64,000 nucleotides of DNA from Chthonomonas sp. Its GTDB lineage: Bacteria > Armatimonadota > Fimbriimonadia > Fimbriimonadales > Fimbriimonadaceae. The DNA is taken from contig JAEURP010000009.1 in the NCBI GenBank assembly GCA_016788585.1, positions 186,001-250,000 on the forward strand. Reading direction: 5' to 3'. The position numbers and the translations under genes were made by a program. The notes beneath the pieces are model-generated. The model did not search any database. It was not told the origin of the DNA and was given only the letters and a program-made list of their open reading frames with translations. Positions 22,934 through 43,403 of the stretch are shown in pieces. Position 1 is the stretch's first letter, and each line of letters begins with the position of its first letter.

Positions 22934-22997
22934 AAAGGTGCGGCAGGACGGGAACAGAGGGGATGAATTTCAAGTCAAGACTAAGCGTCGGCGGACC

Positions 22998-23885
22998 ATG
23001 GTTATGAAACGACAACACGCGTTTACGCTTGTGGAGCTTTTGGCGGTGATTGCGATCATCGCTTTGCTCTCGGCAATTATCTTTCCCGTCTTTGCGCGGG
23101 CACGTGATAATGCGAACCGAGCTGGCGATATTTCATCCTTGAATGAACTACGCACTTCGTTGCAACTTTATCGGCAAGACTTTGGCGGCTACCCGCCATC
23201 ACTTCTTGGTTTTGTAGACCGCTATTCAACCGGTCCTCAAGCTGGTCAGGTAATTCCTGCCGATCTCATTACATCGGCCCTCTTTCCAAAGCGGGTTCGG
23301 AGCCTTGAGACGTTTCGCCCTCGGCCGGTGCGCGTCACGAAGACCGCGCTGACCACGGCCGTTTGGCCAGTTGCTGATAGTCGTGCATTAGGTCAAGCTC
23401 CCATCGTCGACACCAATGGCGATAACCAAGTGACTGCAGCAGACGATATTGCTGGGGCACGCCAAGCCTATTCCAACTCAGACACGGTAGCGATCAATCG
23501 TGGTGTACCAGTTGGCCCCGGCAATCCGGCGGCAGAGTTTTATCAGATCAGCGGTTACGACGTCGCTCAGAATCCGAAGAGCATTGGCAACCGAGCAAAC
23601 GAGTGGGAGTTGCGATACACACTCTTCTGGACGAATTACTCGATCGGTACGGGCGCTGGCTATGGAAGTGGAAGCGCCTTTGACGATCCGCGGCAACTAG
23701 GTTACAACGATCCGCCCGAAAGCACGGTCATCACATGGAACTCGTACTATCGCGATTGGGAGCCTGCTGGTGTAAACCGCATCCCGCAGCGAAGCAACCG
23801 CGACATCGTTTTGTTCCTTGGTGGCGCCGCCCGCCCATTTGATTCGCGCAAGGTGTGGGATTACGCCTGGCGCTCCATGCCCTGA
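22998..23885 (+). CDS. FimU/GspH-like prepilin with calcium-loop motif
   Basis: This 295-residue type IV pilin-like protein has a short basic leader and the methylation segment FTLVELLAVIAIIA, with glutamate at mature position 5; cleavage would be after alanine (HA/F) rather than glycine. The helix continues as FPVFARARDN, a common form in Armatimonadota. The globular part contains DTNGDNQVTAADD (about 138-150), which resembles an EF-hand/dockerin calcium loop. It is the first of four prepilin-like genes and occupies the FimU/GspH position of a minor-pilin operon. ATG 22998 is used; ATG 23004 is equally plausible. It could also be a major pilin, although the size and the calcium loop favour a minor one. 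Confidence 0.8.
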   Translation: MVMKRQHAFTLVELLAVIAIIALLSAIIFPVFARARDNANRAGDISSLNELRTSLQLYRQDFGGYPPSLLGFVDRYSTGPQAGQVIPADLITSALFPKRVRSLETFRPRPVRVTKTALTTAVWPVADSRALGQAPIVDTNGDNQVTAADDIAGARQAYSNSDTVAINRGVPVGPGNPAAEFYQISGYDVAQNPKSIGNRANEWELRYTLFWTNYSIGTGAGYGSGSAFDDPRQLGYNDPPESTVITWNSYYRDWEPAGVNRIPQRSNRDIVLFLGGAARPFDSRKVWDYAWRSMP

Positions 23886-23912: not shown

Positions 23913-25901
23913 TTGAACTGTCTTGTGTCTAATCATCGGAAGCGTGGAGCCTCGTTAATCGAGATCCTCGTGGTCATTGTGATCTTCGTGGTCGGGATTT
24001 TGGCTTCGGTCCAGGTCTTCCCGGGTGGCCTCGCCATTTTGCGGCAGAACCGCTCGAACACGGTCGCCAATGCCCTCGCCCGAGCCGAGCTCGAAAGGAT
24101 GAAGTCCCAAAAGGACCAATCATTCGACGCCCTCCTCGCCGTCAATTACCCCATCGTTTTGCCCGGCGTTCGCGAGATTGAGCTAGACATTCAGCGTCTG
24201 CCTACTGATATCAATCCTCCCGTTCAAGTCACCGACCTCGACAACACGGGTCTCCTTTCCGATGCCGACGGTGGGCTCGGAAACTGGTGGCTGTTCTCGG
24301 GCGCAAATGCAATGCGGCAGATCATCGGCGAAGGCCGCCGAATCCCCTCGGCTCGATTCGTCGATGGTCCGACTGGCACGCGCTTCGGTGGTGTCCTCGC
24401 GCTTCAATATGGCCCGCTGTTTCTAAATATCCAGTCGGCTAGCCCGGTGAATCCGGCCAACTTGGTTCCGTTTGTCGTTTATGGTAATGAACTGGTCCGT
24501 CGATTCACGGATGCCGATCTGTCCAGCGATTTTCCCCTTCGCGACGACTATGTGTCCTGGGTCGAAGACGATGGGGAGTTCTTCACGCTTCCGCAGGGTG
24601 CTTATCGCCCCGGTGCTCCTGTTGACCGGAATTACCGAGTTAGCGCAAGAGTTCAGTTTAGTGACGGCACGGTGCAGGACCTCGTGAGAGTGGTACCGGT
24701 ACCGGCTGCTGCGTCTGGTGCCCAAAGATACAACATCTCGCACGACTTCAAGGTTGTATTTAGTGGGGTTGGACCAGCTGTCACTCGTGTAGAGCCGGAC
24801 ACGGTTCAAATTGCGCGTCTGTTCGACGAAGTAGCGACCTTCTACACTGAAGCTCAGATTCAGGCTAACCCCGGCCTTCTCGACGATGCTGTCTATCAGT
24901 ATCAGCGGCTGGACGACCAACTCGGAATCTTCTTGTTCCACCCTCAGGGCTCGCAGTATCAAGAGCGGCGCGGTCGTGGGCGAATCCCGATGCGGGCATT
25001 CGTGGATTACAACGTGCTCGATTGGAGGATCATCCGCGACGATTTTCGAATCGGTACTTCCGCGCCTTACCACCAGAAGCTCCTTGTAGAGAGTCTCAAA
25101 GTTTCTGGTAATCGCGGCGCCGATGGCCTCAACTACTTGGGCCTCGGTTTCCCAGCGGCCAACGGAACAGTGACCCCAGCCCAACGAGACTTCGTATTGT
25201 TCGATCGTGATACAGGCGCAGTGATTCTCCCAAACAGCTACACCATCGACAAGTCTCTTGGACTCCTCCGGTTTGTTGACGTCGATAACAATGCAGCCAA
25301 TGGCCTTAGTGCTGATGTGGTCTACGCCGGGACAACTGCCGCGGCAAGGATCGACGATATTCGAAACCGCGCGGTTCGGGCGCTTTATCAGGCCAATGGC
25401 GAATACGCCGTTCAGCCGGTAAAGGCGTTTAACCGGTACCGAGCGACGTTCAGTTCGACCCTCGGCGTCGGTCAGTGTTACATCGGCGGTACCGACGCAG
25501 CGGCGCCTCTGTCGCTGGATCGGCGGATCTACTTCCCGCTCAGCGAGATTGGCAAGCAAGTCGTGGTGAGCGAAATCGTATACGAGGATGGCGCGGCGGT
25601 CCGAAAGAAGCTCACTGAGCAGGTCTTCCTCATCCGCGCACCTGGTCCCACCGATTGGAACCGATATGCCTTTATCGATATCCAAGATAAAGATCCCGCG
25701 GCCGTTCGATTTAACTACAGTTTGGGATACGCCGTTCGATCAGTGAGAGGCGCGAGTGTGGGTGTTCGGGTGCTTTGGAATCCGTCGTCCTTCTCCCTGA
25801 CTGGGGACTCGGCCACGAATATGACGAGAATGCGCCAATGGCTGGGCCAGATGCGGCGTGTGACTACTGAAACATTCCTTCTTAAGGGAGCGGAGAATTG
25901 A
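23913..25901 (+). CDS. Giant PilV-like minor pilin
   Basis: The 662-residue protein begins with the leader NHRKRG and then ASLIEILVVIVIFVVGILA, a type III signal with glutamate at position 5, followed by a PilV-type amphipathic helix with LARAELERM. A normal PilV is about 150-200 residues, so roughly 450 residues are added. These are strand-rich and include DLDNTGLLSDADGG (about 109-122) and SYTIDKSLGLLRF (about 442-454), the latter resembling a beta module seen in the last giant protein. A TTG start at 23913 is supported by GGAGG 10 bp upstream. It overlaps the next gene by TGATG. Predicted pilus tip component, inferred from order. Confidence 0.76.
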   Translation: MNCLVSNHRKRGASLIEILVVIVIFVVGILASVQVFPGGLAILRQNRSNTVANALARAELERMKSQKDQSFDALLAVNYPIVLPGVREIELDIQRLPTDINPPVQVTDLDNTGLLSDADGGLGNWWLFSGANAMRQIIGEGRRIPSARFVDGPTGTRFGGVLALQYGPLFLNIQSASPVNPANLVPFVVYGNELVRRFTDADLSSDFPLRDDYVSWVEDDGEFFTLPQGAYRPGAPVDRNYRVSARVQFSDGTVQDLVRVVPVPAAASGAQRYNISHDFKVVFSGVGPAVTRVEPDTVQIARLFDEVATFYTEAQIQANPGLLDDAVYQYQRLDDQLGIFLFHPQGSQYQERRGRGRIPMRAFVDYNVLDWRIIRDDFRIGTSAPYHQKLLVESLKVSGNRGADGLNYLGLGFPAANGTVTPAQRDFVLFDRDTGAVILPNSYTIDKSLGLLRFVDVDNNAANGLSADVVYAGTTAAARIDDIRNRAVRALYQANGEYAVQPVKAFNRYRATFSSTLGVGQCYIGGTDAAAPLSLDRRIYFPLSEIGKQVVVSEIVYEDGAAVRKKLTEQVFLIRAPGPTDWNRYAFIDIQDKDPAAVRFNYSLGYAVRSVRGASVGVRVLWNPSSFSLTGDSATNMTRMRQWLGQMRRVTTETFLLKGAEN

Positions 25902-28237
25902 TGCGAAGAAGGGCATTTACACTATTAGAACTCATCACCGTCATGGCGTTGACGGCGGTGCTCATGGGCCTTGTGGTGTATCCGCTCATTCAAAGCTTTG
26001 ACATCACTCGTGCTGGCCAAGGCTTTGCCGATGCTCAAAACCGAGCGCGTATTCTCATCGAGCGGATCACGCGTGAGGTTGGAAACGCTGCGTTTGTACG
26101 GGATAACACTGGCGACGCCGGATCGGTCTACATCGACGTACCCGCCTCAGCCGCGACCCCAAACAACTTTGTCCGAATTAGGCTAGAAAACTCGCGCCTG
26201 GACATCATGGCACCTGCCCAAGGAGACCCGACGCCATCAAGCCAGCCGGGCGGAGGCCTGATTAACCCAGATACCGGTCGCGTCGACCCCACACTGAAAA
26301 CTCCAAAGGGCGATGTTAACTTGCCAGTGACCGAGGGCTTGCGTCTCGTGCGCTACTTTGTCGGGCTACGCGAGCCAGTTCAGGGCACGCGGGCGAACCC
26401 GCTTCCCGCAAGATATTTTAATCCGTATGACGGCGTTCTGAATCGAAGGGCTGGCGGACAAGATAACCTCTACGTTCTTTGGCGGGCCGAGGTCGATATT
26501 CGCCAGTTCAACAATGCAACGAGTACTTGGCAGATTAATACAGAACTGTTCGATGTCGACGGTGACGGAACGGCCACACCGCGTGAATTGGAGCAGGCTC
26601 TCGACGACCCAAACTTCTTCAACTTCTCGATTCCATTAGCGGATATCAACAACCCCGCCAATGTTGCCCTAGCGCAACGGCAACGAGACTTCGACCGCAT
26701 CCGGGCTTGGATGAAGCGTTCGCGCATCGTTACCGAGTTTAGTCGATACGACATGATTCAGGTTTCGATCGACAAAGCTTCGCGGGCAATTCAGACCTTT
26801 GTCGATCCGATCGACGGCGTGACCAAGCCGAGAATCACCTCGTTGGTGGAATTCACTCCGACCCGAGTGAGCGGCGAGCCAATGGGCGGCTTGTTGGCAG
26901 TCCGAAGCGGTGAAGAGTCGGACAACTCAGCCAAGATTGGTCCCGATGTCTTTTCGGCTGACTTTGGCTTTGTCACTTCGCCAATCTTGCGCGTTCGGCC
27001 CAGTAGCTATCGAGATCTGGCGAACGCGATTGTTGCGCCGTGGACTCCTTACGAGTCTTGGATCAATGGGCGGCCCTATCTGGTGAGCCGAGATCGTCCA
27101 AATGGTGGGTTCAGTCAGTTCTACTTTGTCTCGGGAAATGACCTAACAGCCGGCACCGAGGTCTTCGATAATAGCGGTTACACGTTTGCCCGCGACTATG
27201 ATCGTGGTCAGCCCCTGCCTCCAGATCCTGACACTGGCGTCGCAACGACCGGGCTCTTCCGCTATCCTTACTCTTGGGCGATCGATAAGGCCGTTCAGAG
27301 AGCTGGCGGAACAAATTTGCTCAATACCGCTGCCATGCGTGAAGACTTTGTACCAACGGTGCTCGATCGCAAGCAAGGCAAGGTCATTGCGAGCTTTGGC
27401 ATTAATGAAGTTGGAACCGCGAACGCATTGCCGCCGGGTGTCGATGACAATCGACCGGTTGCCGATTGCGGGCAAGCTGTTCCGCCTGCGCAGGATGTTC
27501 TAGTCACGGGAGGCTCCCCTTCCAACCAGCGCTGGGCGGCGGTTGATTTCAATCCGGCGCTCGCTTCCAGTCACATCAATCAGCGCTTTAACGTGCTCTG
27601 GAATGACTGGCAGTTGCTCGCTCCTAACCTTGAGAAGTCGCAGCTCGTGCGTCGGTTCGTCGACTTGCGTGTAACCCCTCAAGTGGATGGTGCGGCGAGT
27701 CCGCTCGATCCTAGGCAGGGTTTTGCTAGGGCCAGAATGGTCCCTGGTAGCGAAATTGTGATCGGGCCAGACCAAACTCCAGGCACCAACTATGGGCAGC
27801 CTGTGCGATACACTCGCGTGCCCGTCGCCGGCAACGTTGGCCCTAATCAGTATTTCATCAATTACGTCAATCAGCGTGAGCCCGATTGGCAGCAACTCGG
27901 CTTTACGGTCGATCCTCAGATATTCAATCCGACCTACTACGATGATGCGGGCGGAAACTGGTCAAATCGGTTTGTGTCGCAAATTCTACAACCGCGGTAC
28001 CGGGCTGGATACATCGAGTTCAACTCGATGCCTGGCGAACCCCTGCCAAGCGGTCGGATTAGTGTTTTCTATCGTTTCCAATTCACCGAGACCAAGGATG
28101 TGTTTGAGTTGGATTACGACTCGCGACAATTGATGAACATCGCGCTGACGATTCGGAACTTCCCCCAAACCAGCGCGCCTAATCAGCAGAACGTCACCGT
28201 TCGCGGCCAAGCCAATGTGCGCAACCTTTTGAGATGA
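25901..28237 (+). CDS. Giant PilW-like minor pilin with EF-hand loop
   Basis: At 778 residues this prepilin-like protein is two to three times a usual PilW. MRRRA then FTLLELITVMALTAVLMGLV gives a leader, glutamate at position 5 and the hydrophobic helix, and FADAQNRARILIERITREV continues like PilW. Residues 218-229, DVDGDGTATPRE, form a textbook 12-position EF-hand calcium loop with Asp at 1, 3 and 5 and Glu at 12. The C-terminal part is strand-rich with aromatic residues (PNQYFINYVN, RISVFYRFQF). ATG 25901 shares its A with the previous stop. It probably assembles with its neighbours into a tip complex. Confidence 0.76.
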   Translation: MRRRAFTLLELITVMALTAVLMGLVVYPLIQSFDITRAGQGFADAQNRARILIERITREVGNAAFVRDNTGDAGSVYIDVPASAATPNNFVRIRLENSRLDIMAPAQGDPTPSSQPGGGLINPDTGRVDPTLKTPKGDVNLPVTEGLRLVRYFVGLREPVQGTRANPLPARYFNPYDGVLNRRAGGQDNLYVLWRAEVDIRQFNNATSTWQINTELFDVDGDGTATPRELEQALDDPNFFNFSIPLADINNPANVALAQRQRDFDRIRAWMKRSRIVTEFSRYDMIQVSIDKASRAIQTFVDPIDGVTKPRITSLVEFTPTRVSGEPMGGLLAVRSGEESDNSAKIGPDVFSADFGFVTSPILRVRPSSYRDLANAIVAPWTPYESWINGRPYLVSRDRPNGGFSQFYFVSGNDLTAGTEVFDNSGYTFARDYDRGQPLPPDPDTGVATTGLFRYPYSWAIDKAVQRAGGTNLLNTAAMREDFVPTVLDRKQGKVIASFGINEVGTANALPPGVDDNRPVADCGQAVPPAQDVLVTGGSPSNQRWAAVDFNPALASSHINQRFNVLWNDWQLLAPNLEKSQLVRRFVDLRVTPQVDGAASPLDPRQGFARARMVPGSEIVIGPDQTPGTNYGQPVRYTRVPVAGNVGPNQYFINYVNQREPDWQQLGFTVDPQIFNPTYYDDAGGNWSNRFVSQILQPRYRAGYIEFNSMPGEPLPSGRISVFYRFQFTETKDVFELDYDSRQLMNIALTIRNFPQTSAPNQQNVTVRGQANVRNLLR

Positions 28238-31200
28238 AAATGAGAACGAATCGGCAGTCGGGTCAGACCCTGATCATTGCGCTCCTAATCATGGGGGTTC
28301 TCCTCATCCTAGGTTTCGTCTTCGCCGGAATCGTCAGCCGCGGCATCTTCCAGACTTCCAGCGCCTTCAAGCGAACCCAAGCGACCGACCTTGCCGAGGC
28401 TGGCGCACGATTTGCCCACTACCAGCTCCAATATTCGGATCTGGCCGCCGACTGGCGCCCTTCCGCCACGATCATGGCGACGGATCCACAAGGCTTCACG
28501 CGAGACCCCGATGCATGGTATCTGCGACCAAGGCCAACATCGCCTTCATTTTTGCGCGACCGCTTAGGAAACACGATTCCTGACCTTGGAGGCCCTGATG
28601 GGTTGGGGCCGTTTAGCCGATTCGAGTTCGACAAAGGGCGTGCCCTTGTTCGCGTCCTCTACAATCCGACCCAGTTCGCCGGATTTAATGGGAATGCTTA
28701 CCTGCGCGAGCCAGCTAGGGCCCGAAGCCTCGTCCTCATTGAAAGCGTGGGCCGCCCAGGTAAGGTTGTGCCCAACGACCCCACGACTCTCACCAGCGAG
28801 GCAGTCAAAGTAAACAACTACGCCAGCCTAGCCGAGTTTGATGAGCAAATGGGCAAGCAGCGTTCGCAAGTGACGCGTAACGCGGAGACTCGAAAGCTCG
28901 TGGCATTTGCTTCGGTGACGAACATCGAGTACGGCTACTCGATCATGGACAAGTTTCATGTGAGTCGCCCCGCCGAAATCGGAGCGCCGACGGATAGTCT
29001 TAATCTTCTTTCAACCGCGACCGCCACAGATCCTCGCGGCGATCTGGGAATTACTTACGAAGGTAACCGAGTCATCGTGCCGTTTATCTTGGGTAGCCAA
29101 GTGGTTACTGCAACGGGTGCCAATCTCGTTCGCGGGACGGGCTCTCTCTTCTCCAATGCTGACTTGCTAGTCCATGGAGATGTGCGGGTGACGGTGGATC
29201 CACGGGCAGGTGACAAGTTCTTGACCGCCGGACGAATCACGCCGGCCAACAATGCTGCACGAATTGAAATTACTCGGACCGACAACTCGGGGACAACGGT
29301 TATCAACGTCGCCGGGCAAGGCATGTCCAGTACCAATCCAGGATTCAGCACTCATGGTGGGGTCTTCCGTGATGGGTCAAAGTCTGTTGACGCAACGGGC
29401 CAAGCGCGGTCGGTGAACCGCATCGAGCCGCCCAGCTTTGTGGCGAGCGATCCGGCATCGGGCGTTAATCGATACACAGAAATGACTCGCCAAAGTGGTC
29501 GCCAAATCGTTGGCGGAATGTTTGGAGGTCGCAACACTGGTCAATGGGGGCACGGAAACGGTCTATATATCGATAGCCCCGAACGAGGGAACTTCTCGAC
29601 AGAGACCGACCGCGAAACCGGTGATCCAGCCAAGGCGCTCACCCGCGATTGGCTTAACCCCAATAACCCAGATTCAGTTGCCTGGAAAGGCCCCTACTAC
29701 ATTCCTGTCGCCGCATATTGCGAGTTCTTGCCAGACGGTTTTCGAATCATCCGAGATGCGCGGAGCCGCTCGCGAGTATGGCGTCGGGAAGACGGCACAA
29801 CAACGGGCACCTCCGAAGTGCGCTATCGACTCCTTTACCCAGGACGCTTTGGACGCAAATACATCATCAACTCCATTTCACACCCCGACCTGATTGACCT
29901 GCCCTATAACACCATCCCGGTGGCTTCGGTGCAGAACCGGGGATGGGAATTCAATGGCGTCCTCCAGTTCGAGGGTGATGTCCGCGTTCGAGGCGTGATT
30001 CCCACTTTCGAGCAAATCACGCTGACCTCGCTAGGCACGATCTATATCGAAGGATCGATCACAAAGGGTGTCGTGAGTCCTGTCGATGGCTCGGTCCTGT
30101 CAGTGCCAAGCCCAGCTACGGTGATGCTGGCCGCGAAGGACTATGTTTGCGTGAATACCACCATGTTCACGGGTCCTGCTCCAGGCGAATCCGTAAGCCC
30201 GAAGAGAACCGATCGTTTGCCGAATACGCCCAATCCGATCGAACTCGACTTGAGCGAGCGACAGACCGTAACCCTGCAAACCCAGTTTCTGCGCGATCCA
30301 TTTATCACTGCGAGTGGCCTTCCAAATGCGAATCCCCAAACATGGGCGCCTTTTGCAACGGAGTACATCGAAGCGGGCGATAACCAGCCGATCACCTCAT
30401 CTTTGCTCTTGAGTCATAGCGCTGACAATAGTGGCCCCAGCTTCATCAGTCTCTCAAGCACACCATTTGGTTACATGGGTTCGACCGGAGATCCCGTTGG
30501 GCAGAAGTATATCTTTGGTCGCGATGTTACGCGTGACTTCAATGTAGAGGCAGGTGCCTTGTTCACTGCGGCGAATCTCGTCAGTATCTATGGACTGACC
30601 AATACTACTCAAACCGCATTTCCAAGGTTCGAGACAGCAGCACTTCCGCTGATCGACAATGCGTTTACGGTGACCTCGCTACGACTGACCGGTCAAACTC
30701 CTGGCTTTGGAGGCGCGCAGGTCTACGCGATCGACGACGAGACTCGGTTCACGATCACCCCTGAGTTTCCAAGCGCTTATCAAGCCCAGAACTATGTCCT
30801 CGCTCGAGCGGCAATGCAGCCCAGCGATATCAGAGTCCAGGCGGCGATCTATGCGGAGGAGGGCTCGTTCTTCGTGATTCCAGGTCCTGCGTTTAACCTT
30901 AATCCGGACGATACACGCGCTCGCTTCCTCGGCACAATTGCCACCAATGCGGCCAATGGCATCGCCGATGCGATCGGTCAAGCGCAACTACAACGCTATC
31001 GAGACTTTGGCAGCCGCCCCGAGGCCCCGTTCTTTGGTGAGCCGCTCAATTGCCGCGTTTCGATTCTTGGATCGATCAGCGAGAATATGCCCGTTCCCAT
31101 GAGCGAACGTGCCGAGTGGTTGAAGAAGTGGGGATGGATGCCTCGATACGTCGGTGGTTCCGGTGATCCCAATAGCTCGAATCTCAATGATCTACAAACG

Positions 31201-31440
31201 TTGCCTCGGCAGCACGTGCCAGTCGGCTGGCCGCTGGATTTGACAACCGGCGCCCCAAGTGCGACCGATGCGAGGTTTGTACCGAATTTCAACTTGACCT
31301 ATGATCCGGTTTTTGCTGTGGGCTCGGCCGATGGCGTCAATCCGCTGAGACGAAGCGATGATGGCCTTTGGATATTGCCGCCCATGCCCCGACTGCCGGT
31401 TAGCCCAACACTTGCCTACTTTGGCGAGGTGAACCCATGA
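28234..31440 (+). CDS. Giant PilX/GspK-like minor pilin
   Basis: The 1068-residue product starts with NRQSG then QTLIIALLIMGVLLILGFVF, a prepilin-type leader and helix that lacks glutamate at position 5, as expected of PilX/GspK, the tip pilin. ATDLAEAGARFAHYQ matches the PilX/GspK helix with its AEAG phrase. The remaining thousand residues are mainly beta-rich and unlike any family I recognise, whereas normal PilX is about 170-200 and GspK about 330. It overlaps the neighbouring genes on both sides (ATGA at the start, TGA overlapping the next ATG). The usual role is to cap a pseudopilus and contact PilY1, so a partnership with the next gene is likely. Confidence 0.74.
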   Translation: MKMRTNRQSGQTLIIALLIMGVLLILGFVFAGIVSRGIFQTSSAFKRTQATDLAEAGARFAHYQLQYSDLAADWRPSATIMATDPQGFTRDPDAWYLRPRPTSPSFLRDRLGNTIPDLGGPDGLGPFSRFEFDKGRALVRVLYNPTQFAGFNGNAYLREPARARSLVLIESVGRPGKVVPNDPTTLTSEAVKVNNYASLAEFDEQMGKQRSQVTRNAETRKLVAFASVTNIEYGYSIMDKFHVSRPAEIGAPTDSLNLLSTATATDPRGDLGITYEGNRVIVPFILGSQVVTATGANLVRGTGSLFSNADLLVHGDVRVTVDPRAGDKFLTAGRITPANNAARIEITRTDNSGTTVINVAGQGMSSTNPGFSTHGGVFRDGSKSVDATGQARSVNRIEPPSFVASDPASGVNRYTEMTRQSGRQIVGGMFGGRNTGQWGHGNGLYIDSPERGNFSTETDRETGDPAKALTRDWLNPNNPDSVAWKGPYYIPVAAYCEFLPDGFRIIRDARSRSRVWRREDGTTTGTSEVRYRLLYPGRFGRKYIINSISHPDLIDLPYNTIPVASVQNRGWEFNGVLQFEGDVRVRGVIPTFEQITLTSLGTIYIEGSITKGVVSPVDGSVLSVPSPATVMLAAKDYVCVNTTMFTGPAPGESVSPKRTDRLPNTPNPIELDLSERQTVTLQTQFLRDPFITASGLPNANPQTWAPFATEYIEAGDNQPITSSLLLSHSADNSGPSFISLSSTPFGYMGSTGDPVGQKYIFGRDVTRDFNVEAGALFTAANLVSIYGLTNTTQTAFPRFETAALPLIDNAFTVTSLRLTGQTPGFGGAQVYAIDDETRFTITPEFPSAYQAQNYVLARAAMQPSDIRVQAAIYAEEGSFFVIPGPAFNLNPDDTRARFLGTIATNAANGIADAIGQAQLQRYRDFGSRPEAPFFGEPLNCRVSILGSISENMPVPMSERAEWLKKWGWMPRYVGGSGDPNSSNLNDLQTLPRQHVPVGWPLDLTTGAPSATDARFVPNFNLTYDPVFAVGSADGVNPLRRSDDGLWILPPMPRLPVSPTLAYFGEVNP

Positions 31441-34400
31441 CGACTAAGTCTGCACTACTTTTAGTTACTGCCGCGTTAGCGGCAAATGCCGTTTCAGCCC
31501 CAGTCACGTTCTCGGGACGACGTCTGCCGGTGAATGTGGGCGTACTAGTAATCGAGAGCCAAACGACGGGCGGAGAACCGACAAATCTCGCCCCCCACGT
31601 TTGGGGACAACTTGAGAAAGATCGGGCGATTAAGCCGGCTGCATGGTCATTCACGAATCCTCGTGCCAATTCGTCCCTCACCGATTTCATGCAGACCCGA
31701 TGGGTCAATCGGGGTGTCGCAAATGTCCCCAGTAGCGGCTCGCGCATGACTAAAGACGATGGCCCCTATTGGGAGGTCGATCTGGATGATGCGAGTGACA
31801 CTCAACTTGCCAATTACGACGCACTACTCCTGGTGGTCAGCGGCACGGTCTCGCTGAACTCCAAGGAAAGAGAGAAGCTCCGCAAGTTCATCGATCAGGG
31901 CGGTTTGCTTTGGGTGGATGTTGCCGCTGGCGGATCGCCTGCGTTTGACGTTACGAATCCACTTCCCATTCCGATGCTGTTTAACTTCAGCGCAACGTCT
32001 CTATTAATTGACCCAACTCACCAATTGGTGAGTTATCCAAACGCCATCACTCCCAGTGAGTTAGGCTCACTTTTTTCTGCGGGCACCGGCGTGATCCAAG
32101 TGCCCAATGCGGCCCCTGGCAACGATAGCCAAGGCTGGGTGCTGGTCGACGGCTTGAAGCTGGATCCGGTCGTCGGGCCAGATCCGACCGCGATGACCCT
32201 TGGTTTGGCCAAGATAGGTGACGGCTACATGATGGCGACGACACGATTTGTGTCGGGCGCTCTCAATCAAGGGCGCAATGGAGCCGGAGCGATTGTTGCA
32301 AACACCGGATTCCGAAGCTTTCCGCCCGTTCAATCTAACGTTTTCTCGTCGGCGGCAAAGCTTGTCATTAACGCCTTAAGTCTTCGCGCAAGCTCTTCGA
32401 CCGGACTTGCCAATGGTCGTCACACGAATTCGCTCTCGGTGGACATTTCCGCCCCCTTGCTAAAGCGATTCGAGACAGCCCAGATTTCGCCAGCCGCTGA
32501 CACGAGCCCGGTTCTATACAAGAACAGAATTGTGATGCTCGGCCGTGATGGTCGACTCTATGTTCTCGATGCAAGAGCATCTGATGATTTGGACGGCGAC
32601 AGCAATCCCGACGATGGCTATACAGATGCCGCGGGTTCGCCAATCGATATCATTTGGAGGAGCGCCCCGCTCGTCGGAGGTGGTCGTGGCTCGACCCCTA
32701 CATGTACCGAACTGGTCCGCTCAGTAGATACGGCCGATGGATCGGACGCAATTCTCGTGCATGTTGCGGAAGCCGGGCAGCCAAGCACCGTTTACCAATT
32801 CCCATTCCGGGGTAGCGGCGACAATTTCCCCGAGAGTAACCGTTACACGAGCGACTCTAATACGACTCTGACTCCGGCAAGCGGCTTCACGGTGCCGCAA
32901 AAGGCGCCAGCCTCACCGACGGTTCACGAGGGTATCGCGTATGTCGCCGATATCACCGAAGCCAACAATGCGCTTGGTCGCGTTTGGGCGATCGATCTTA
33001 TGGATCAGGTCGAAATGCAAACCGCGAGTCGACAATGGCAAATCCAACTCGCGCCGCGCATGGCCGCAGTAGATGGGGCGCCAACAGTTGGTTACATCCC
33101 AATTCAGGACAATTCTGGCGGGGCCGATAAGGTCGTTTATGTGCCGACTCAACCTGATGCCGCGCGGTCGGCGGGATTCGTAAGCATTTGGGCTGGAGTT
33201 CGGGGCGAGGCGCCCGTAAGCGTTCAACGCATCGGCAACACCCTTCAAATCACCACTCGCGCATCGCTTCAAAACCTTCCAATTTATGCCAGTGGTGGCA
33301 CTGGGCAACAGAGCCTCGATCTCAAGCTCACCGTTCTGGACACGGCGACCGGCCGGCCATTCTCCGGCGCAAACATGAACAACATGTTTGCCGGTAGCCC
33401 TCTCGCCAACAGCGGTCAAAACGGAACGATTCGAATTGACCTTGGCGGATTTGGCCAGGGGCTCGACTTCACCGGTCCAAATCCAACCGCAGCTCTGCGA
33501 ATCGACTACACCCTTGACTGGGGACGAGCCGGTTCAGGACCCGGCCTCGCCGCCGCCGACAACTACATTCGCGGCGATGCTCAGTTGCCGGATGACTCTG
33601 GCAACGGACGTCGAGTTCTAGGAACGGTCGCCCTGGGCTCGACTGGCAACATTTTCGTTGTTACCGCTCCGTCTGATGTCACACGTCCTGGCGGCTCCCT
33701 TTTCGCTCTTAAGGAACGGGGTCGAGGCGACTTCAACATGCTCTACCGCTGGGAGGCATTTGACCAAATGAACCTCTTGGCTAGTGCGTCGACGGGACTG
33801 ACAAGGATTCCGTATGACGGCTGCGTTGTCGATCACGATGGCTTGCTGAACTTCCCCGGTATCGGCGCATTCTTGAACCGCCCCATGACGATCCAGCGCT
33901 TCGCCACTGGTCCAGTGGTTAGGGGCAATCGCGTCTACGCGGCGCTAAACTCTGGGAAGCAGTTCCCATTTCCGACCGGTAGTGAGCGGTTCAATACTAG
34001 CGTCATTGCCTTCGAGGCCGATCCGCGACCTCTTGAAATGCTTGTCGAAGGACTAGGGCAGAGCTTTGCTCTTGTTCAGCCAGATCCGGGCCGCAGCATT
34101 CGTCCAGCAGTTGGTCCATTCGAGCCAAATGTCTTGAGCGTTTTGCAGCCAATTCAGTTCCAAACTGACACTGTTAACGGATTTTCACGGGTGACTTTGA
34201 ATTCGGTTGCCAGTGTTAGCCGAGGCCGATTCCGAGATGCGCTTATCTGCAACCTGCCCGTCATTGCCCGCCGCGGCGGTTCGCCAGACATGGTGATCCA
34301 GCCCGATGCCGGTGTTGGCGACGGCCTTCTGGTTCCTGGAAATGCCGATGGCCGATGGAATCCCCAGAAATGGCAAATCGTGATCAATGGCATGGAGACC

Positions 34401-36308
34401 ACAGGCAACATGTTCGTATCCGGCGATACCCTGTACTTCGGTGGTGGTAGCTTCCTGCCAGGGTTCCTTGAAAATGGCTTCGGTACCTTGCCAACCAAGA
34501 CCGGATTCCTTTATGCTGTCGACCTCCGCATTGGCGCAAATGACCTGCGGGAGCCTTCGATCCGCCATGCTTGGCAGGTGGGTCCGCTCCGTGGTTGGGA
34601 ACGCTATATCAGCTTAATCGACCCAGACCCAAGTGGCAATGGCGTTACGCCTAGCCCGTACGTGATTTGGCCGAGTAACAATGGCATTCGTTCGTTTGAC
34701 GACTTCCGAGTTCGCGTTCGACAGGCTGTTCTAGGAAGTCCATCGGCTCCGTCTCCATTATCGGGAATCATTGGTGGCAATGACGCGTTATTGGCTTGGA
34801 ACAACAACGAGACATTTGCATTCTCAAGGTCCGACCTACTCGTGACTGATGAATCGCGAATCATTCGCATCGATCCCAGTGGCGCACCCCTTTGGTCTGT
34901 GGATGCTACGTTAAAGGGTGGTCAAGATGGTGAAATTGGCAGTAGCCAGACCTCGGTGAACTTGTCGCGGCCAACTCGCGCCTACTCGGTTGGCGGTAAC
35001 TCCTATCTGATTGCGGATCCTGGCAACAACCGTATTGTCAAGATCGATGGATCGGGCCGCGAACTCCGTACCTTGACAAAGTTCAATCTGGACCCAATCT
35101 ACCTGCCGGAAGGAGTGCCCGCGAACGCGCCTACGAAGTTGGCAGGGCCCAGAGATGTCTTGACCTTTACAACATTCCAAAGCGATATTCAGATTAACCA
35201 AATGGTTAGTAACGGAGAGCTTAGCCCAGCACTCGCACGTCGTCTCAATGGCACGGCCGAGTATTGGGTTCACTATGTCATCGCCGATACAGGTAACCAG
35301 CGAGTAATTGAGTTGATCGACCGCTATGAATACAGTTCAACTCGCGGCGTTATAGGGCCCGTTGCTCGAATCGACGACCCCAGTTCTGATGCGCCGATCA
35401 CCACGGTGGCAGGGATTCCGCGGCGGCTAGTTCCAGCTCTGGGCATGTTGAAGTGGCAGATCAAGAGCGAGCTAACACGAAAGCAATACTCGTACAACAG
35501 TATCGATCGAATCTGGCTGAACGACTCACACGGCAGTCACCCGATCTTTGCGTTCGGATTTGGAAATGTCGAGCCGGCTCAATCCAGCTTTGGCCTCCCG
35601 GATACGGGGCGAACCGACAATCAGGTAGGCGCCGGAGGCGTGGTCCTCTATGATCCTGATCACGACGACACAGCGGTAATCACCTCGTTTAACGTCCCGC
35701 CGATCTCGAGTTCAGTTTTCTGGAATGATACAACGGCAAATTGGGGCATCAACGATGTGCAAAACACCTACGTTGGTGGTGGAATGCGAAAGATCAGCGG
35801 ATTGAGATCGGCAACGCTTGGTTACGTCAATGGCGTTCTAAGCGTGATGATCAGCGACAGCAATGGCGTTTACGAGCTCACTGATAATGCCGGCACTTGG
35901 GATGCACGATGGGCAATGCCTCGCGAAGCCTATGTGGTTATGCGCCGCGGTCGACTTAATCCATCCAACCCCAATCCAGTCGTGCCCACAACGAAGAACC
36001 CAATGGGATTCATTCCAACATTCGCTCGGCGATTGAATTCGGGCGAAATCCTGGTCGTGAACGGTTATGTTGGCAAGCACCGCGTAGCCAGCCTTCCCCA
36101 CGTGTCCTCGTTTGGTATCAGCCCGGGCGACCCGTTTGGCGGCGAGGTCGTCGTGCTCGACGGCGCGATCGACCCCAATCCGGCCAACCGCGGATTTGGC
36201 TGGAACAAACCCAATCTAGGGTTTGACTCTTACTATGTGAACTTCGAATTACCACCGGTTGCGGGGACACGTTCGCTCGAAGGGCCGGTGTTTGCAGAAA
36301 AGCGATAG
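31437..36308 (+). CDS. Giant secreted PilY1-like beta-propeller protein
   Basis: A 1623-residue exported protein with a signal peptide cleaved near residue 21 (AVSA). Residues 120-165 (DALLLVVSGTVSLNS and the following QGGLLWVDVAAGG) look like a DUF4159-type Rossmann-like domain. Residues about 360-560 look like PQQ-type propeller blades, with DGRLYVLDARASDD leading into DLDGDSNPD (384-392), matching the D-x-D-x-D-x-x-x-D calcium site known from PilY1. Further on, YLIADPGNNRIVKIDG (about 1191) and VIADTGNQRVIEL (about 1282) are NHL-type blades. Its position directly after PilX- and PilW-like genes is that of PilY1, the pilus-tip adhesin. It would be anchored by the pilins or be surface-exposed. 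Only the propeller fold and order support the PilY1 analogy. Confidence 0.7.
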   Translation: MTTKSALLLVTAALAANAVSAPVTFSGRRLPVNVGVLVIESQTTGGEPTNLAPHVWGQLEKDRAIKPAAWSFTNPRANSSLTDFMQTRWVNRGVANVPSSGSRMTKDDGPYWEVDLDDASDTQLANYDALLLVVSGTVSLNSKEREKLRKFIDQGGLLWVDVAAGGSPAFDVTNPLPIPMLFNFSATSLLIDPTHQLVSYPNAITPSELGSLFSAGTGVIQVPNAAPGNDSQGWVLVDGLKLDPVVGPDPTAMTLGLAKIGDGYMMATTRFVSGALNQGRNGAGAIVANTGFRSFPPVQSNVFSSAAKLVINALSLRASSSTGLANGRHTNSLSVDISAPLLKRFETAQISPAADTSPVLYKNRIVMLGRDGRLYVLDARASDDLDGDSNPDDGYTDAAGSPIDIIWRSAPLVGGGRGSTPTCTELVRSVDTADGSDAILVHVAEAGQPSTVYQFPFRGSGDNFPESNRYTSDSNTTLTPASGFTVPQKAPASPTVHEGIAYVADITEANNALGRVWAIDLMDQVEMQTASRQWQIQLAPRMAAVDGAPTVGYIPIQDNSGGADKVVYVPTQPDAARSAGFVSIWAGVRGEAPVSVQRIGNTLQITTRASLQNLPIYASGGTGQQSLDLKLTVLDTATGRPFSGANMNNMFAGSPLANSGQNGTIRIDLGGFGQGLDFTGPNPTAALRIDYTLDWGRAGSGPGLAAADNYIRGDAQLPDDSGNGRRVLGTVALGSTGNIFVVTAPSDVTRPGGSLFALKERGRGDFNMLYRWEAFDQMNLLASASTGLTRIPYDGCVVDHDGLLNFPGIGAFLNRPMTIQRFATGPVVRGNRVYAALNSGKQFPFPTGSERFNTSVIAFEADPRPLEMLVEGLGQSFALVQPDPGRSIRPAVGPFEPNVLSVLQPIQFQTDTVNGFSRVTLNSVASVSRGRFRDALICNLPVIARRGGSPDMVIQPDAGVGDGLLVPGNADGRWNPQKWQIVINGMETTGNMFVSGDTLYFGGGSFLPGFLENGFGTLPTKTGFLYAVDLRIGANDLREPSIRHAWQVGPLRGWERYISLIDPDPSGNGVTPSPYVIWPSNNGIRSFDDFRVRVRQAVLGSPSAPSPLSGIIGGNDALLAWNNNETFAFSRSDLLVTDESRIIRIDPSGAPLWSVDATLKGGQDGEIGSSQTSVNLSRPTRAYSVGGNSYLIADPGNNRIVKIDGSGRELRTLTKFNLDPIYLPEGVPANAPTKLAGPRDVLTFTTFQSDIQINQMVSNGELSPALARRLNGTAEYWVHYVIADTGNQRVIELIDRYEYSSTRGVIGPVARIDDPSSDAPITTVAGIPRRLVPALGMLKWQIKSELTRKQYSYNSIDRIWLNDSHGSHPIFAFGFGNVEPAQSSFGLPDTGRTDNQVGAGGVVLYDPDHDDTAVITSFNVPPISSSVFWNDTTANWGINDVQNTYVGGGMRKISGLRSATLGYVNGVLSVMISDSNGVYELTDNAGTWDARWAMPREAYVVMRRGRLNPSNPNPVVPTTKNPMGFIPTFARRLNSGEILVVNGYVGKHRVASLPHVSSFGISPGDPFGGEVVVLDGAIDPNPANRGFGWNKPNLGFDSYYVNFELPPVAGTRSLEGPVFAEKR

Positions 36309-36341: not shown

Positions 36342-39300
36342 ATGAATACGTGGCGATCAGTTTTTAGTGGCTTCCTAGCCTTGGCTCTGATTCAGGGGGC
36401 GATGGCACAGCAATGGGGCGGCTTCCAAGGAGGTCAGGCGAGACTAGGGCAACACGATGCCAATAAGCGCACCTTCAATCCAGGACGACCGTTCCTGCGT
36501 TGGTGGGACCCGCTCTACAGCTTGACCACGGTCATTGATAATTTTGAGCCTGGGGCTTCTTACACGCCAATCGCGGCATGGGACCAGCCTACCGGTGATC
36601 GCGCTGGCTTCGCTCACCAAGAGGATCTCACTTCATTCCCGCCTCCAGCCGAGTATCGGTACGCTACGCCGGTCAATGCAATCTCCGTCGATGAACCTTG
36701 GACACCCGCAAGTGGCGTTGCTCCAGCGTTTCAATGGCAGTTCACGGGATTGGCAGCAGGCGAACAGTATGGCGTGAGCGTCAACATTCCAATTGGACCA
36801 ACCGACGTCGACCCCACTGCCGCGACGGACTACCGCTTTCAGGCTCGATACTTCGTTTACGAAATTACGGGTGTCGACAACCCGACCAACCCTGGGCAGC
36901 CCATCTACCAGGTCGTAGACAATCTCCAATATGCGGGGGGATGGGTGCGCCTCGGCAACAATGGGGCGACCACGAATCAGGTCTACACCGTCTCGGCTGG
37001 GAACACGATCACCGTACGGCTTCTCGCGACCGTGCCTCGACTCGCTGATGGCTCGTGGGCCGACAATGCGTCAAACGTGCTGGTTTACGCCGACGCAGCT
37101 CGAATTGAAGGCGTCACGAGTACTGCAGGCACCGTGACCACCCAGGCCGTTGTTGGTCAAAACAACGCTGGCCCATTCCCGTGGCGAACCGTGTCCGTTC
37201 GATCGGAAGACACGACGGTCCAAGACGGTTCGGTACTCAAGAGCTTTGGCTTCCCGCTCGTCACCAGCTACGCTTTCGATGGCTCGCTCGTCAATGTGAC
37301 GGATACTACTGGTCGACGAAACATGATCTGGTCATGGCCTGTTCAGCGACCGTTCAACGCGACCGATACCGAGTTGCAACGCTACTATTCCGAGAAGGCC
37401 GACTGGGCCCTGGGAACGGGTCTTTTTGCCGCCGACCCTAATCGTACAGATCACAGCATCTTAGTGGATAACACGAATGCAAACGTGCGGGTGGGCATTG
37501 CTTGGACCCCCGATACGGTAGCCCCTGTTTTCAAGGGCACCGACTACTTGGTTAAGGTCGCCGAAGTTGCCTCGACGAGCCAAGTTCAATATGAACCCAA
37601 ACTCACGGCGGGTCGATACACGATCGACGTGTTCATTCCGCAAGCCTCGGGCCTCGCCACGGCCGCAACTTACGAAGTGCGTCGCGGTGCAACGCTCATC
37701 GCTACCGATACGATTGACCAGAACGCTAATGCAGGCCGATGGGTGCGGATTCAAGTTGGACAAACCTCGGCATGGGATAGCGACGACTTATCGCCTCTTT
37801 CGCTGAGCGTCACCGGTACGAGCAATCCAGCCAATGGCGACGTCATGGCGGATCAAGTCCGCTTTACGAAGACTGCCGACCTGACCGTACGCTCGACTCC
37901 GATTTACACGCGCGCGTTCGTTCGAGTGGGCGCAACCACCGCGGAGCGAGATGTTGTCATCGTCACGATGGACAATGGCCGCATTTACTGTTTGGATGCT
38001 AGGGGCTTGGAGAGCGCGGGTACGCCAACAGGTCGCACCCAAGTTTATTGGGTCTACCCAAGTGAGGGGAGCGCCGACCCGAATTGGGTTGCCGGCGAAG
38101 ATGGACCGGACGGCATGGCTGAAATGCCGACGGCATTCAATGCATCCAGCGCAACGATGGCGCGGGTGAACACAGGAACCGGAACTGAAGATCTTCTGTA
38201 TATTGGTTCTCAGAACGGTCGGGTTTATTGCATCAACATGGAGGGCCGTGGGGACGGCACGACAACTCGGCGCTGGAGCTACCCCAACGACTATCCGTCA
38301 GCTTCAGTCGAGAGCGCACTTGGACCCATTCAAGGCTCTGTTGCGTTTGCTGACACAACCGCCGGACCGACCGTTTTTGTGCCAACAGTTCAAGGGCGAC
38401 TCTATGCCCTCGATGCCGTAGGCGATCCCATCAATAAAACAACAAATTCGCGCTGGACCTATCCGGATATTGCTGGCGGCCCTATTGGGTCCATCACGAT
38501 GGCGCCAGTCATCGGATGGAGAACGGGTAACCCCACTGATCGTGTGGTCTACTTTGGTACCAACGATGCATCACTTTTTGGTGGTGGGAACACCATGTTT
38601 GCGGTTAACGCGGTGGACGCGGGTGCCGATGGTATTGGTGATCTCCTTTGGTCTCGCGACTTTGCCGCAAATCCATTCGGAAACTTCCTCAACATTAGCC
38701 CAGCTTTTGCAGATCAATCGGACGTGAACCCGAACTGGCCGGGTGCGCCGTTGAACCCTTATGGCGCAACCATGCCCAACACCCTTTTTATTGGTAACAC
38801 CAACCAAGAAGTGGCTGCACTGGATGCAGACAATGGAAATGTCATCTGGGTCGACGATGTTGGCGCTTCGCCATCGGCCCCTCTCAGCTTCTCGCACGCC
38901 CGACTTCCGGATGTTGCTAGCGGTGCAACTATGGCGACGCCAGAGCCGATGGTCGTCGTGCCAACTACGGACGGACGCTATGTTTCGCTCGGAGCTCCTG
39001 CGGGCCGGCTCGACTTTACCGGTAGCCGAACGATTTGGACGATAACCGGTCAACGTAACGGCAATGTGCCCGCGATGTCCTTTGGCGGTACTAATGCGCC
39101 CTTCCACAATTACATGTATGGGGCTGATGCCGCCGGATATCTATACGCATGGAGTTGGGATCCAACGCTGCCAGATGATGGGCAAGCCATTACTCCTGGG
39201 CAACCACCAATTGGACCAACTGATGTCACGACGGACCAAACCTCAATCAACCTTGGCGATATTGTTCGGAACGCTCGCGTCGATTTCATTCTTCCACAGG

Positions 39301-42300
39301 ACTTCTCGAATTTGCAGGCCAGGGCTTCGGCGGGAACTCTAACACAGGCGGACCTCGCCGCGGCGATCAATAAGGTCACGAGAAGGCATTTTGAGTTTGG
39401 CGAGACTGCATATCTGCTGGTCCATAACTTGCCGGACCCGGCTTCCTTTGCGCCGCCATTCCCGTATACCGTCGACTTGTTCTTCAATGCGCCGGGGCAG
39501 AGTTCACAACGCGTCGCCTTTGGACTTACTCCAGTTGGTGGAGCCGCAACACCGGCCAATAACCGGTGCGTTTTGGCCAGCTTCTCGTTCATCGGAATTG
39601 GTCAGAACGCATTGGTACCGGGGAACTCCACGATTACCGTCCGTGCTCTTTCCGTAAATCGCCAAAATGCGAACCGGACAATTCCAGCTACGAGCTTCCG
39701 CCCAAGCAATACGGTCTCGCTAGCCAACCCGCTGGCCGTCCGATTAACTGGCGTCACACAGACGCCGCAGACGCAAGTAGGAACGGCCCTGTCGCCCGCT
39801 GATGCCGACAATATCGTCAACGGAACTCCGGCCTCGAAGCTTACGACAATGGTTCAGCGATTCCGTCCAGAGCTTTCGGGCAATGCCGATCTCTTGTCCC
39901 ACGGAACAACCGGTCTGACGCGTCTCGATGTCTTTGACCGAAGTCTTATGTCGTTGCTCTTTGGCGGTCAACGCGGCCTGTCGGGAGTTCGGATGGAGCT
40001 CAATAACATGAACTTCCTCGGCAACCCGATCAAGCCATTGGATCCCCTCGTTTACGCGGGGCTAGAAGACTTGCCTGGTAGCCCAGGAACTAATGTGAGC
40101 TTGGACTACCCAGACATTCGGCGCGACCGGATGCAAGTGACCAAGGAGCAATATGGGCAGGTAGAGAACCCGCTTTTCCAAGGCGTGTCGCTCATTCCTC
40201 CGGCTTACACTCAAGCTGATCTCAACACCTACCGGTCGGACGAGAACCAATACAACCAGTTCCTGAATAGGACACTTGAAAGCACCGCGTTTGACTTCGA
40301 AGTCAGCGTGCCGCGATTCCAACCTCCAACCACGGATCAGTATCGAGGGGCCCAGTTCGTCTATGTAGATGCTGGAGCACCGGGGCGACAACTCAACGGG
40401 ACGCAAGCCGTCGAACCGTATCGCCAATTCGGATTGAGTACAGCGATTTCGATTGACGAGCGACCCGTCTTGGGTACCCCCACGGTCGATCTAGGATCGA
40501 TTCCAGGTGGTGGTGGTTACTTACCGTCGTCACCTTGGAATACTGCTGGGTACAACATGCTCGATGGTCGAATTCACAATTCGACGCGCTACCCATTCTT
40601 CCAGCGATTCTCGTTGTTCAACGAAGGCAATGTGAACTTGCTCAACGTCCGAATGGCGAAGCAGATTCAGACCACCGGCACAGACGTGGTGCCTCTCCGG
40701 GCGCCATCGCTGAACTTCCGAGCTCAACTGGATGGTCGATTACACCTCCATTCAGATGTGGATCCCTTCTTTGCCGGAATTACGCTCTCCGGACGCCCAA
40801 GCATGGGTGACCGGGTGATTCTGCAAAAGGCGCGCCCGGATGACGGGGAGCCGACTCGGCTCAGTGTTAATCCAAAGCGCCGCGCAAATGCGAATCTTGA
40901 GGTCGTAGATGGCTATCTGCTGGGGATTCCTGACTTTGCGAATGTCAACGACTACGAAGAGTCCATCAAGGATCCGAAAGTTGCTGTCTCCGTGCCGATC
41001 GGTACGCCAGTCGGCCGCTATCAGAATGGCATCTACCTCTTCGAGGATTCCTTGGTTGCTGGGCCAAGCCCCGCCTATCCGACGCTAAACTACGTGGTCG
41101 TCAATGGTCTCGATGTTTACGAGCCTTTCACAGACTCGCCAATGAACCTATTGTTCTTGGTCCGTGAATCCAGGTTGACGACAAGCACAGTAGGCAAGGC
41201 GGCTCCGATGGCGGACAATATTCCGGTCGGCCCGAACTTCCAATATGCCAATCAGGGACCGGCGGTCACCAGGGTCGGCAATGGAACGATGGTTGTTGCC
41301 ATCACTTCGGACAGATTGCATAATGGTGCCCCCAGCATCGTTCCTGGCATGCGGCCTGAAACCGAAGCCGGCAACTTGCCGCAATGGCGGATTTACTTCT
41401 TCACGCTAACGGGCGGCGGAACCACGCCGGTTGCCAATTGGAGCCCGATGGGCGATCTGGACTTTTGGAACCCCAATACGTCTACTGGCAATCCGGCAAC
41501 CGATAAGTGGTTCAACCCCGGTGCTGGTTCGTTCCCGATTACGCCAACCGAAGTGATCTTCAACTTCCCGTTTGCCGAATTGGTGCCAAACAGCGCCCAA
41601 TTCAGTAACCCGAGCTTCCCGGCGTTTGGCTTCTTCGAGCCAACCTCAGGATGGGGCGCGAACGGCAATGCTGAGCGTCGAACCATGTACATGGCGTTCA
41701 CGGGTGAAGTGATGCGTCAGGTCGCTGGCGGCGAGCGTCGACGAGAGACGCGGCTTCTGCTTAGCAACCTAGCCGTAGGCAGTGGTGGTTCGGTAACGGC
41801 ATCACCGCCTGTACCTTTGAATTTCAGCACGGAAGTGCCCGACATTCAGGCCAAACTTGGTAAGCCGAGTCTGGTGCAAAGTGGCAACACGGCAACGGTG
41901 TTCTATCCGATTACGGCTAGCGGATCGACCCAGATATTCTTCAGTACCTATAACGGAACCCAGTGGGTGGCCTCGGGAGCATCGCGTCGTGGTGGAACAG
42001 GCCCCGTCAATCGCCTGCGAACGGGCGATGGATTCGAGTCGGTAAACAACCCTTCGGTCGTGCTACGTTCAAACAACTCTCCAGCGATTAACTCGGGAAC
42101 GGTCATCGAGGCGGTCTTCACTGGTCGTCTCCGCGGTCGCTCCCAACCGGAGGTCTACATGGCTCGGATTCCGTCCAATGGTGCGGCTCCAAGGAGTGCG
42201 GACCCATCGCCGTTCACTCGCGGTGGCGGCGCCCTATTTGATCAATTGGTTTACGATCCAGGCGCCCAGATCTTCTGGTCGGCTGGCGCGGATCTGATGC

Positions 42301-43356: not shown

Positions 43357-43386
43357 TTGACGTGGCTCGTTAGGCGGTGCTAAGAT
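43357..43386 (+). promoter_or_regulatory. Candidate sigma70-type promoter of pilM
   Basis: TTGACG at 43357-43362 and TAAGAT at 43381-43386 are 18 bp apart, with the ATG of pilM at 43404. The location directly downstream of a terminator supports a new transcript start near 43393. Confidence 0.5.
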
Positions 43387-43403
43387 TCAGCGCGGACGCA
43401 CGA

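Follow-up and report, generated by a model that had tools for sequence, protein, structure and literature searches.

Among proteins that form the tip of type IV pili and prime their assembly, PilY1 is the best known, and the presence of its calcium site serves as a marker of function. The 64,000-nt stretch analyzed here (the window) contains, inside a run of pilus genes, an open reading frame for a giant protein, termed Y, with the nine-residue acidic loop DLDGDSNPD. A preliminary description of this DNA read the loop as a PilY1-type calcium site and as the best single hint that the protein acts as a PilY1. The locus raises the question whether Y is a PilY1 or a different protein in its place; if the latter holds for much of a phylum, with the calcium loop in a different place, what is conserved would be the slot and the need for a calcium-stabilized tip, and not the PilY1 sequence.

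Gene neighborhood of the Y protein

The following genes of the run were annotated around the Y gene:

19361–20596, + strand: PilT-type retraction ATPase (TIGR01420 pilT_fam, 496 bits, cut-off 319)
20601–21827, + strand: PilC/GspF-like inner-membrane protein (Pfam T2SSF 232 bits, above cut-off; NCBIfam PilC and GspF below their cut-offs)
21914–22933, + strand: prepilin peptidase (Pfam A24_N_bact 101 bits and Peptidase_A24 51.5 bits, above cut-off)
22764–23885, + strand: FimU/major-pilin-like prepilin (HAFTLVELLAV; Pfam N_methyl above cut-off)
23913–25901, + strand: PilV-like giant prepilin (TIGR02523 pilV E 2.9e-06, below cut-off; Pfam N_methyl above cut-off)
25898–28237, + strand: PilW-like giant prepilin (AFTLLELITV) with an EF-hand-like loop (N-terminal pattern)
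28234–31440, + strand: PilX-like giant prepilin without Glu at position 5 (GQTLIIALL; same type adjacent in 39/39 loci)
31437–36308, + strand: Y protein, 1623 AA, putative PilY1 analogue (open reading frame with a hydrophobic N-terminus)
36342–43202, + strand: second giant protein, 2286 AA, with a Golvesin_C domain and a PQQ propeller (Pfam)
43377–44792, + strand: PilM (TIGR01175 202 bits, cut-off 133)
46583–47266, + strand: PilP-like protein, weak (TIGR03021 E 2e-05, below cut-off)
48032–49630, + strand: secretin, PilQ-like (Pfam Secretin 121 bits, above cut-off)

The order is thus PilT, PilC-like protein and peptidase, then the FimU/major-pilin-like, PilV-like, PilW-like and Glu5-less PilX-like prepilins, and then Y, followed by the second giant protein, PilM, the weakly PilP-like protein and the secretin. 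The minor-pilin-like proteins are 662, 779 and 1068 AA long (23913–31440) and similarly long in the relatives listed. Minor pilins of model pili are several times smaller, and giants of this kind, so unlike the minor pilins of model systems, count against the reading of Y that we favor below. Models of the 'Verru_Chthon cassette' touch the PilW-like protein with scores below their cut-offs. Matches to the second giant protein were found in 38 of 41 genomes, its own included, in several cases directly after the Y gene.

A Glu5-less X-like prepilin stands directly upstream of Y in all 39 loci with at least 3.5 kb of upstream sequence, and a W-like Glu5 prepilin lies ahead of X in all 35 loci with at least 4.7 kb, the window being included in both counts. 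The V-like prepilin was found in 8/19 loci with at least 6.5 kb upstream (window included), a number that is probably too low, as stretches may end inside the V gene. The labels X, W and V come from short patterns at the N-terminus; models specific to these families score under their cut-offs. Narrower patterns, used before the final ones, gave X in 37/39 loci and missed L043 and L045. For this count L001, L002, L003, L005, L006 and L008 were dropped and L052 was kept. Among 300 control open reading frames (at least 300 AA, outside the upstream region, Y excluded) the X pattern occurred three times and the Glu5 pattern twice; each pattern was found in one of the 47 control frames of at least 700 AA, and in 3/367 of the control frames when Y proteins were included. 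Because X-like and W-like prepilins precede Y in 39/39 and 35/35 loci, the Y gene occupies the pilY1 slot in every locus whose upstream region is covered. A PilY1-like role of the Y protein is likely from this synteny. What the preliminary description had said of the role is upheld to that extent, on the evidence of the minor pilins; the loop as a PilY1-type site does not carry it, and the best single hint is the gene neighborhood. In the M. xanthus model, PilX also has no Glu5, tops the minor-pilin complex and touches PilY1 (PMC7541494).

The same gene run bears on the idea that the operon builds a short type II-like pseudopilus, with the giant Y as an exported substrate or surface protein. 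The X-like pilin is weakly GspK-like (E 0.089), and M. xanthus PilY1.3 is itself called an analogue of T2SS substrates (PMC7541494). Yet a PilT-family ATPase begins the run, PilM and a secretin end it, and fimbriae have been reported for Fimbriimonas ginsengisoli (PMC4072686); we consider a pseudopilus highly improbable.

Domains and distribution of the Y family

Within the Y protein the following features were delineated:

31503–32390, + strand: N-terminal Rossmann-like domain with partial DUF4159 similarity, approximately residues 23–318 (Pfam, model)
32391–34766, + strand: first beta-propeller, BamB/PQQ-like, with inserted beta domains, approximately residues 319–1110 (model, structural matches)
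32511–32663, + strand: first blade, with strands 359–361, 364–369, 374–378 and 405–409 and the loop between the third and fourth (DSSP of the model)
32586–32612, + strand: calcium-type loop DLDGDSNPD, residues 384–392 (exact encoding and family conservation)
34767–36305, + strand: C-terminal NHL/YWTD-like propeller, model of residues 1095–1623 (model, structural matches)

The N-terminus of the protein, MTTKSALLLVTAALAANAVSA, reads by eye as a type I signal peptide, and Y is apparently secreted. Of 46 family members, 45 match Pfam DUF4159 with an E-value no higher than 0.1; in the window protein the match covers profile positions 43–94 of 202 and scores 26.0 bits (25.3 in another search) against a cut-off of 25.9. 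Helices and strands alternate in the model of this domain.

The model of residues 23–1110, built on 46 sequences (model numbering plus 22 gives the protein residue), has a mean pLDDT of 85 and a pTM of 0.88, and the ten-residue blocks that contain the loop have pLDDT values of 80 and 81. Comparison of the first propeller with known structures by VIA-align gave Z-scores of 19.4 to 15.5 among the best 50 matches, BamB and eight-bladed designs included, with the BamB rows at Z 15.5 to 17.4 over approximately 300 residues. BamB is an eight-bladed propeller. TM-scores from Foldseek with the whole 1088-residue model were low; DDB1 ranked first there and BamB fifth (E 1.7e-04). The PilY1 structure 3HX6 was not among the best 50 matches of Foldseek or VIA-align with the propeller model and may stand lower. 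On the model, the first propeller is of the BamB/PQQ type. It differs from such propellers in its large inserted domains and its long acidic C-D loop, and Pfam PQQ_2 was found only weakly, in 5/46 Y-family members.

The C-terminal 529-residue model (pLDDT 84.7) resembles NHL/YWTD propellers, with Z-scores of 21.4 to 18.5 among the VIA-align matches listed, which are six-bladed; it differs from them in its long insertions and pilus context. Foldseek again placed DDB1 first with this model, and both the NHL reading of the C-terminal propeller and the BamB reading of the first rest on the VIA-align rows. The triplet RGD also occurs twice in the Y protein, first at residue 712 (33570–33578) and again at residue 763 (33723–33731).

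The nearest named relatives of Y come from two Fimbriimonadaceae MAGs and are 83 percent identical. A single-sequence search matched Y in 92/101 genomes, its own included, and a profile of the first 1110 residues matched in 238 of 291 genomes of the phylum, again including its own. Two of the nine genomes without a single-sequence match (G096 and G097) were positive by profile. The remaining seven comprise the reduced G050 without a PilM match, the reduced G032 with a weak one (E 1.6e-08), and five that retain PilM matches at E 1e-18 or better; because of these five, co-loss of Y and PilM gives only partial support. In G087 the single sequence matched only the C-terminal part, and the profile of the first 1110 residues gave no match. 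L007 (G049) and L008 (G043), given as different genera, have an identical Y protein; since a further Y gene, of different sequence, lies on a separate contig of G049, that assembly may include a foreign contig.

No relative was found in the PDB with the Y sequence, which gave chance lectin matches (best E 0.15), nor with the 46-row profile, and the loop consensus searched at E up to 1 gave one chance match (E 0.16). The loop consensus had no match in the plasmid collection and the Y family none in viral contigs. Among open-licence papers we found no description of the Y protein and, beyond one reference-list mention, none of PilY1 in Armatimonadetes/Armatimonadota.

Conservation and position of the acidic loop

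The motif D-x-[DN]-x-D-x-x-x-D is encoded exactly as previously described and does follow the blade sequence, RDGRLYVLDA standing just ahead of DLDGDSNPD. It occurs once in the 1623-residue protein. Since 178 of 3000 residue shuffles of Y contain the pattern at least once (55/3000 for the stricter D-x-[DN]-x-D-[GSN]-x-x-D), the motif alone is weak evidence, mildly unusual. More generally, identification of a PilY1 takes more than a calcium-loop motif.

Conservation was followed in relatives that were chosen, not sampled (loci from the genome search and two hand-picked sets of 20 stretches). L003 (the window itself), L002 (the same as L004), L014 (one internal stop), L001 and L005 (mutually identical and 98.9 percent like L004), L008 (identical to L007) and L052 (identical to L006) were omitted from the alignments. 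The loose pattern was present in 41 and Dx[DN]xDGxxD in 38 of the 46 sequences, window included, of the first alignment. Addition of 20 loci, most from more distant families, gave 66 sequences (the window and 65 relatives), of which 57 retain the loose pattern at the loop and 52 the exact Dx[DN]xDGxxD. The window copy itself has Ser at the Gly position of this published PilY1 motif, a position occupied by Gly in 57/66 sequences. Four of the 66 carry D-to-N variants and five have lost the acidic half, so that the loop cannot be essential throughout the phylum, a point against the reading of Y favored below. The putative ligand positions are kept in 61 (D384), 59 (D386), 57 (D388) and 65 (D392) of the 66 sequences; downstream, G394 and D404 are present in all and D397 in 59. 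A search for Dx[DN]xD[GSN] over the whole protein in the 46 sequences gave position 384 in 41 and position 382, the same loop in a shifted register, in five; no other place was recurrent, three others appearing once each. Together with two other regions, the loop region fills the 15 best-conserved 12-residue stretches of these sequences. By this conservation, and not by the rarity of the motif, the loop is genuine and under selection, and its signature is that of a calcium site of the EF-hand-like kind. Acid at position 12 of the EF-hand loop is not part of that signature, residue 395 being Leu in 23, Ile in 21, Val in 8 and Tyr in 3 of the 66 sequences.

Loops in propeller blades that combine Dx[DN]xDG and a further acid two positions on are known from integrin alpha, YesW lyase, a fungal lectin and PilY1, and the Y loop shows this combination as defined by Rigden et al.; compared with PilY1, it occupies a different blade turn (C-D). 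The calcium-type loops found in several extracellular propellers have a role that is often structural or not known (PMC3123361). A purely structural loop would be a calcium-type turn that stabilizes an ordinary secreted propeller unrelated to pilus control. The five sequences without the acidic half (L046, L047, L065, L067 and L068) all keep D392, G394, D397 and D404, consistent with such a loop and suggesting that its second half has a structural role of its own. This explanation agrees with the reading of Y as a tip protein except that it denies a pilus role, and the 39/39 synteny speaks against the denial; we judge it rather unlikely, though it is the strongest of the alternatives to that reading.

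Strands of a propeller blade are conventionally named A to D, and in PQQ-type blades a short turn precedes a docking tryptophan. In the model, the loop forms the C-D turn in blade one of the first propeller. Joining the third strand to the fourth, it is an enlarged version of the short PQQ-blade turn, here ahead of W407, which follows the loop in 64/66 sequences as in propellers of the BamB/PQQ type.

The PilY1 calcium site lies in blade IV of seven (PMC11891296). In 3HX6 the loop DNNSDGVAD is directly followed by YAYAGDLQGNLWRFDL and stands upstream of the YAGDLQGNLWRFDL hairpin (B-C), whereas the loop of Y is downstream of its hairpin; Aeromonas PilY1 has the same order of loop and strands as 3HX6. 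The statement that the loop comes after a propeller blade as it does in PilY1 is thereby contradicted, since the PilY1 loop precedes the matching strand pair. On the model, both outcomes that the preliminary description had set against its own proposal were seen, namely a different blade and topology (C-D turn of the first blade vs. pre-hairpin in blade IV) and a PQQ propeller of ordinary type, as judged from the BamB/PQQ-like fold and the BamB Z-scores above. A second PilY1 site, of the type DxDxNxxxD (residues 600–608), is placed ahead of the propeller in PMC13190605; identity of the window loop with this site was rejected, the window loop being inside the first blade.

These comparisons leave little room for Y as a true but diverged member of the PilY1 family, with the loop as a regulatory calcium site for extension and retraction. 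Y and PilY1/PilC (PF05567, P. aeruginosa 3HX6) do share a gene position behind the minor pilins, an N-terminus that reads as a signal peptide, and a beta-propeller with a nine-residue EF-hand-like acidic loop of the same motif class; moreover, M. xanthus PilY1.1 is likewise without the Gly of the motif (PMC8833165). However, PF05567 was matched in 0/101 genomes, and in the Y protein not even at a maximum E of 10, while the positive control, a fetched Aeromonas PilY1, scored 40–41 bits in the same searches (the built-in controls were silent). Alignment of two domain profiles with one Aeromonas PilY1 by hhalign gave probabilities of 0.2 and 0.3 percent, a weak test with a single template sequence. 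The two proteins also differ at both ends: Y has a second, NHL-like propeller at its C-terminus, and its N-terminus is DUF4159-like where PilY1 has vWA or DUF4114. A MIDAS motif (DxSxS) is absent from residues 1–330 of the window protein and present in 5/66 sequences; an N-terminal vWA domain with this motif occurs in only part of the PilY1 family. We regard membership in the PilY1 family as quite unlikely. With a different turn and blade, a BamB/PQQ-like fold, and neither PF05567 nor hhalign similarity, the designation as a PilY1-type calcium site is not supported. Given its location elsewhere in another kind of propeller, the loop is, on the model, a look-alike of the PilY1 calcium site. One of the loci, L053 (NZ_AP026896.1), is a chromosome-sized record of 4.9 Mb labelled as an Aeromonas caviae plasmid, and it carries a pilY1 gene.

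Possible role at the pilus tip

Taken together, we consider it reasonably probable that Y is the Armatimonadota counterpart of PilY1 by position, and probably by job: a pilus-tip protein outside PF05567 with an independently placed calcium loop. From the synteny, the place of Y would be at the type IV pilus tip, seated on the PilX-like minor pilin that lacks Glu5, where it would present its N-terminal domain, which is presumably adhesive. Model and alignment show an EF-hand-like calcium loop in place of the short turn that links strands three and four in the first blade; judging by the motif, a single Ca2+ is most likely bound there, with D384, D386, D388, the main chain at residue 390, and D392 as ligands. 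Because the first blade follows the linker from the DUF4159-like domain, Ca2+ outside the cell would probably lock both this blade and its junction with the N-terminal domain. Calcium would then stiffen the tip against pulling load instead of acting as an extension/retraction switch through the PilY1 blade-IV site; no feature found supports the switching by Ca2+ that has been proposed for PilY1. Attachment is a likely use of the pilus, since F. ginsengisoli has fimbriae but is reported as non-motile (PMC4072686). The tip protein might instead be the second giant protein, encoded downstream of Y.

A broader proposal, which we put forward tentatively and with some doubt, is that in Armatimonadota the place of PilY1 was taken, throughout the phylum, by an unrelated giant tip protein (DUF4159-like, BamB-like and NHL-like) that evolved a calcium loop of its own, accompanied in some lineages by an EF-hand loop in the PilW-like pilin. 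If this is true, control of type IV pilus tips by calcium arose at least twice. The Y family offers a testable second case of calcium dependence at the tip. EF-hand-like loops were found in 13 of 35 W-like open reading frames vs. 1.86 expected from shuffling, 11 of the 13 at residues 223–300 of the open frame, and X-like frames showed no excess (3/39 vs. 3.08 expected). Pfam EF-hand matched the PilW-like protein at E 0.11 only. The PilW-like prepilin of the window has the canonical EF-hand-like loop DVDGDGTATPRE, and loops of the DLNGDGKVNYSE type recur in distant relatives. In the FimU-like prepilin, DTNGDNQVTAADD is similar to calcium loops of the dockerin or EF-hand-like type.
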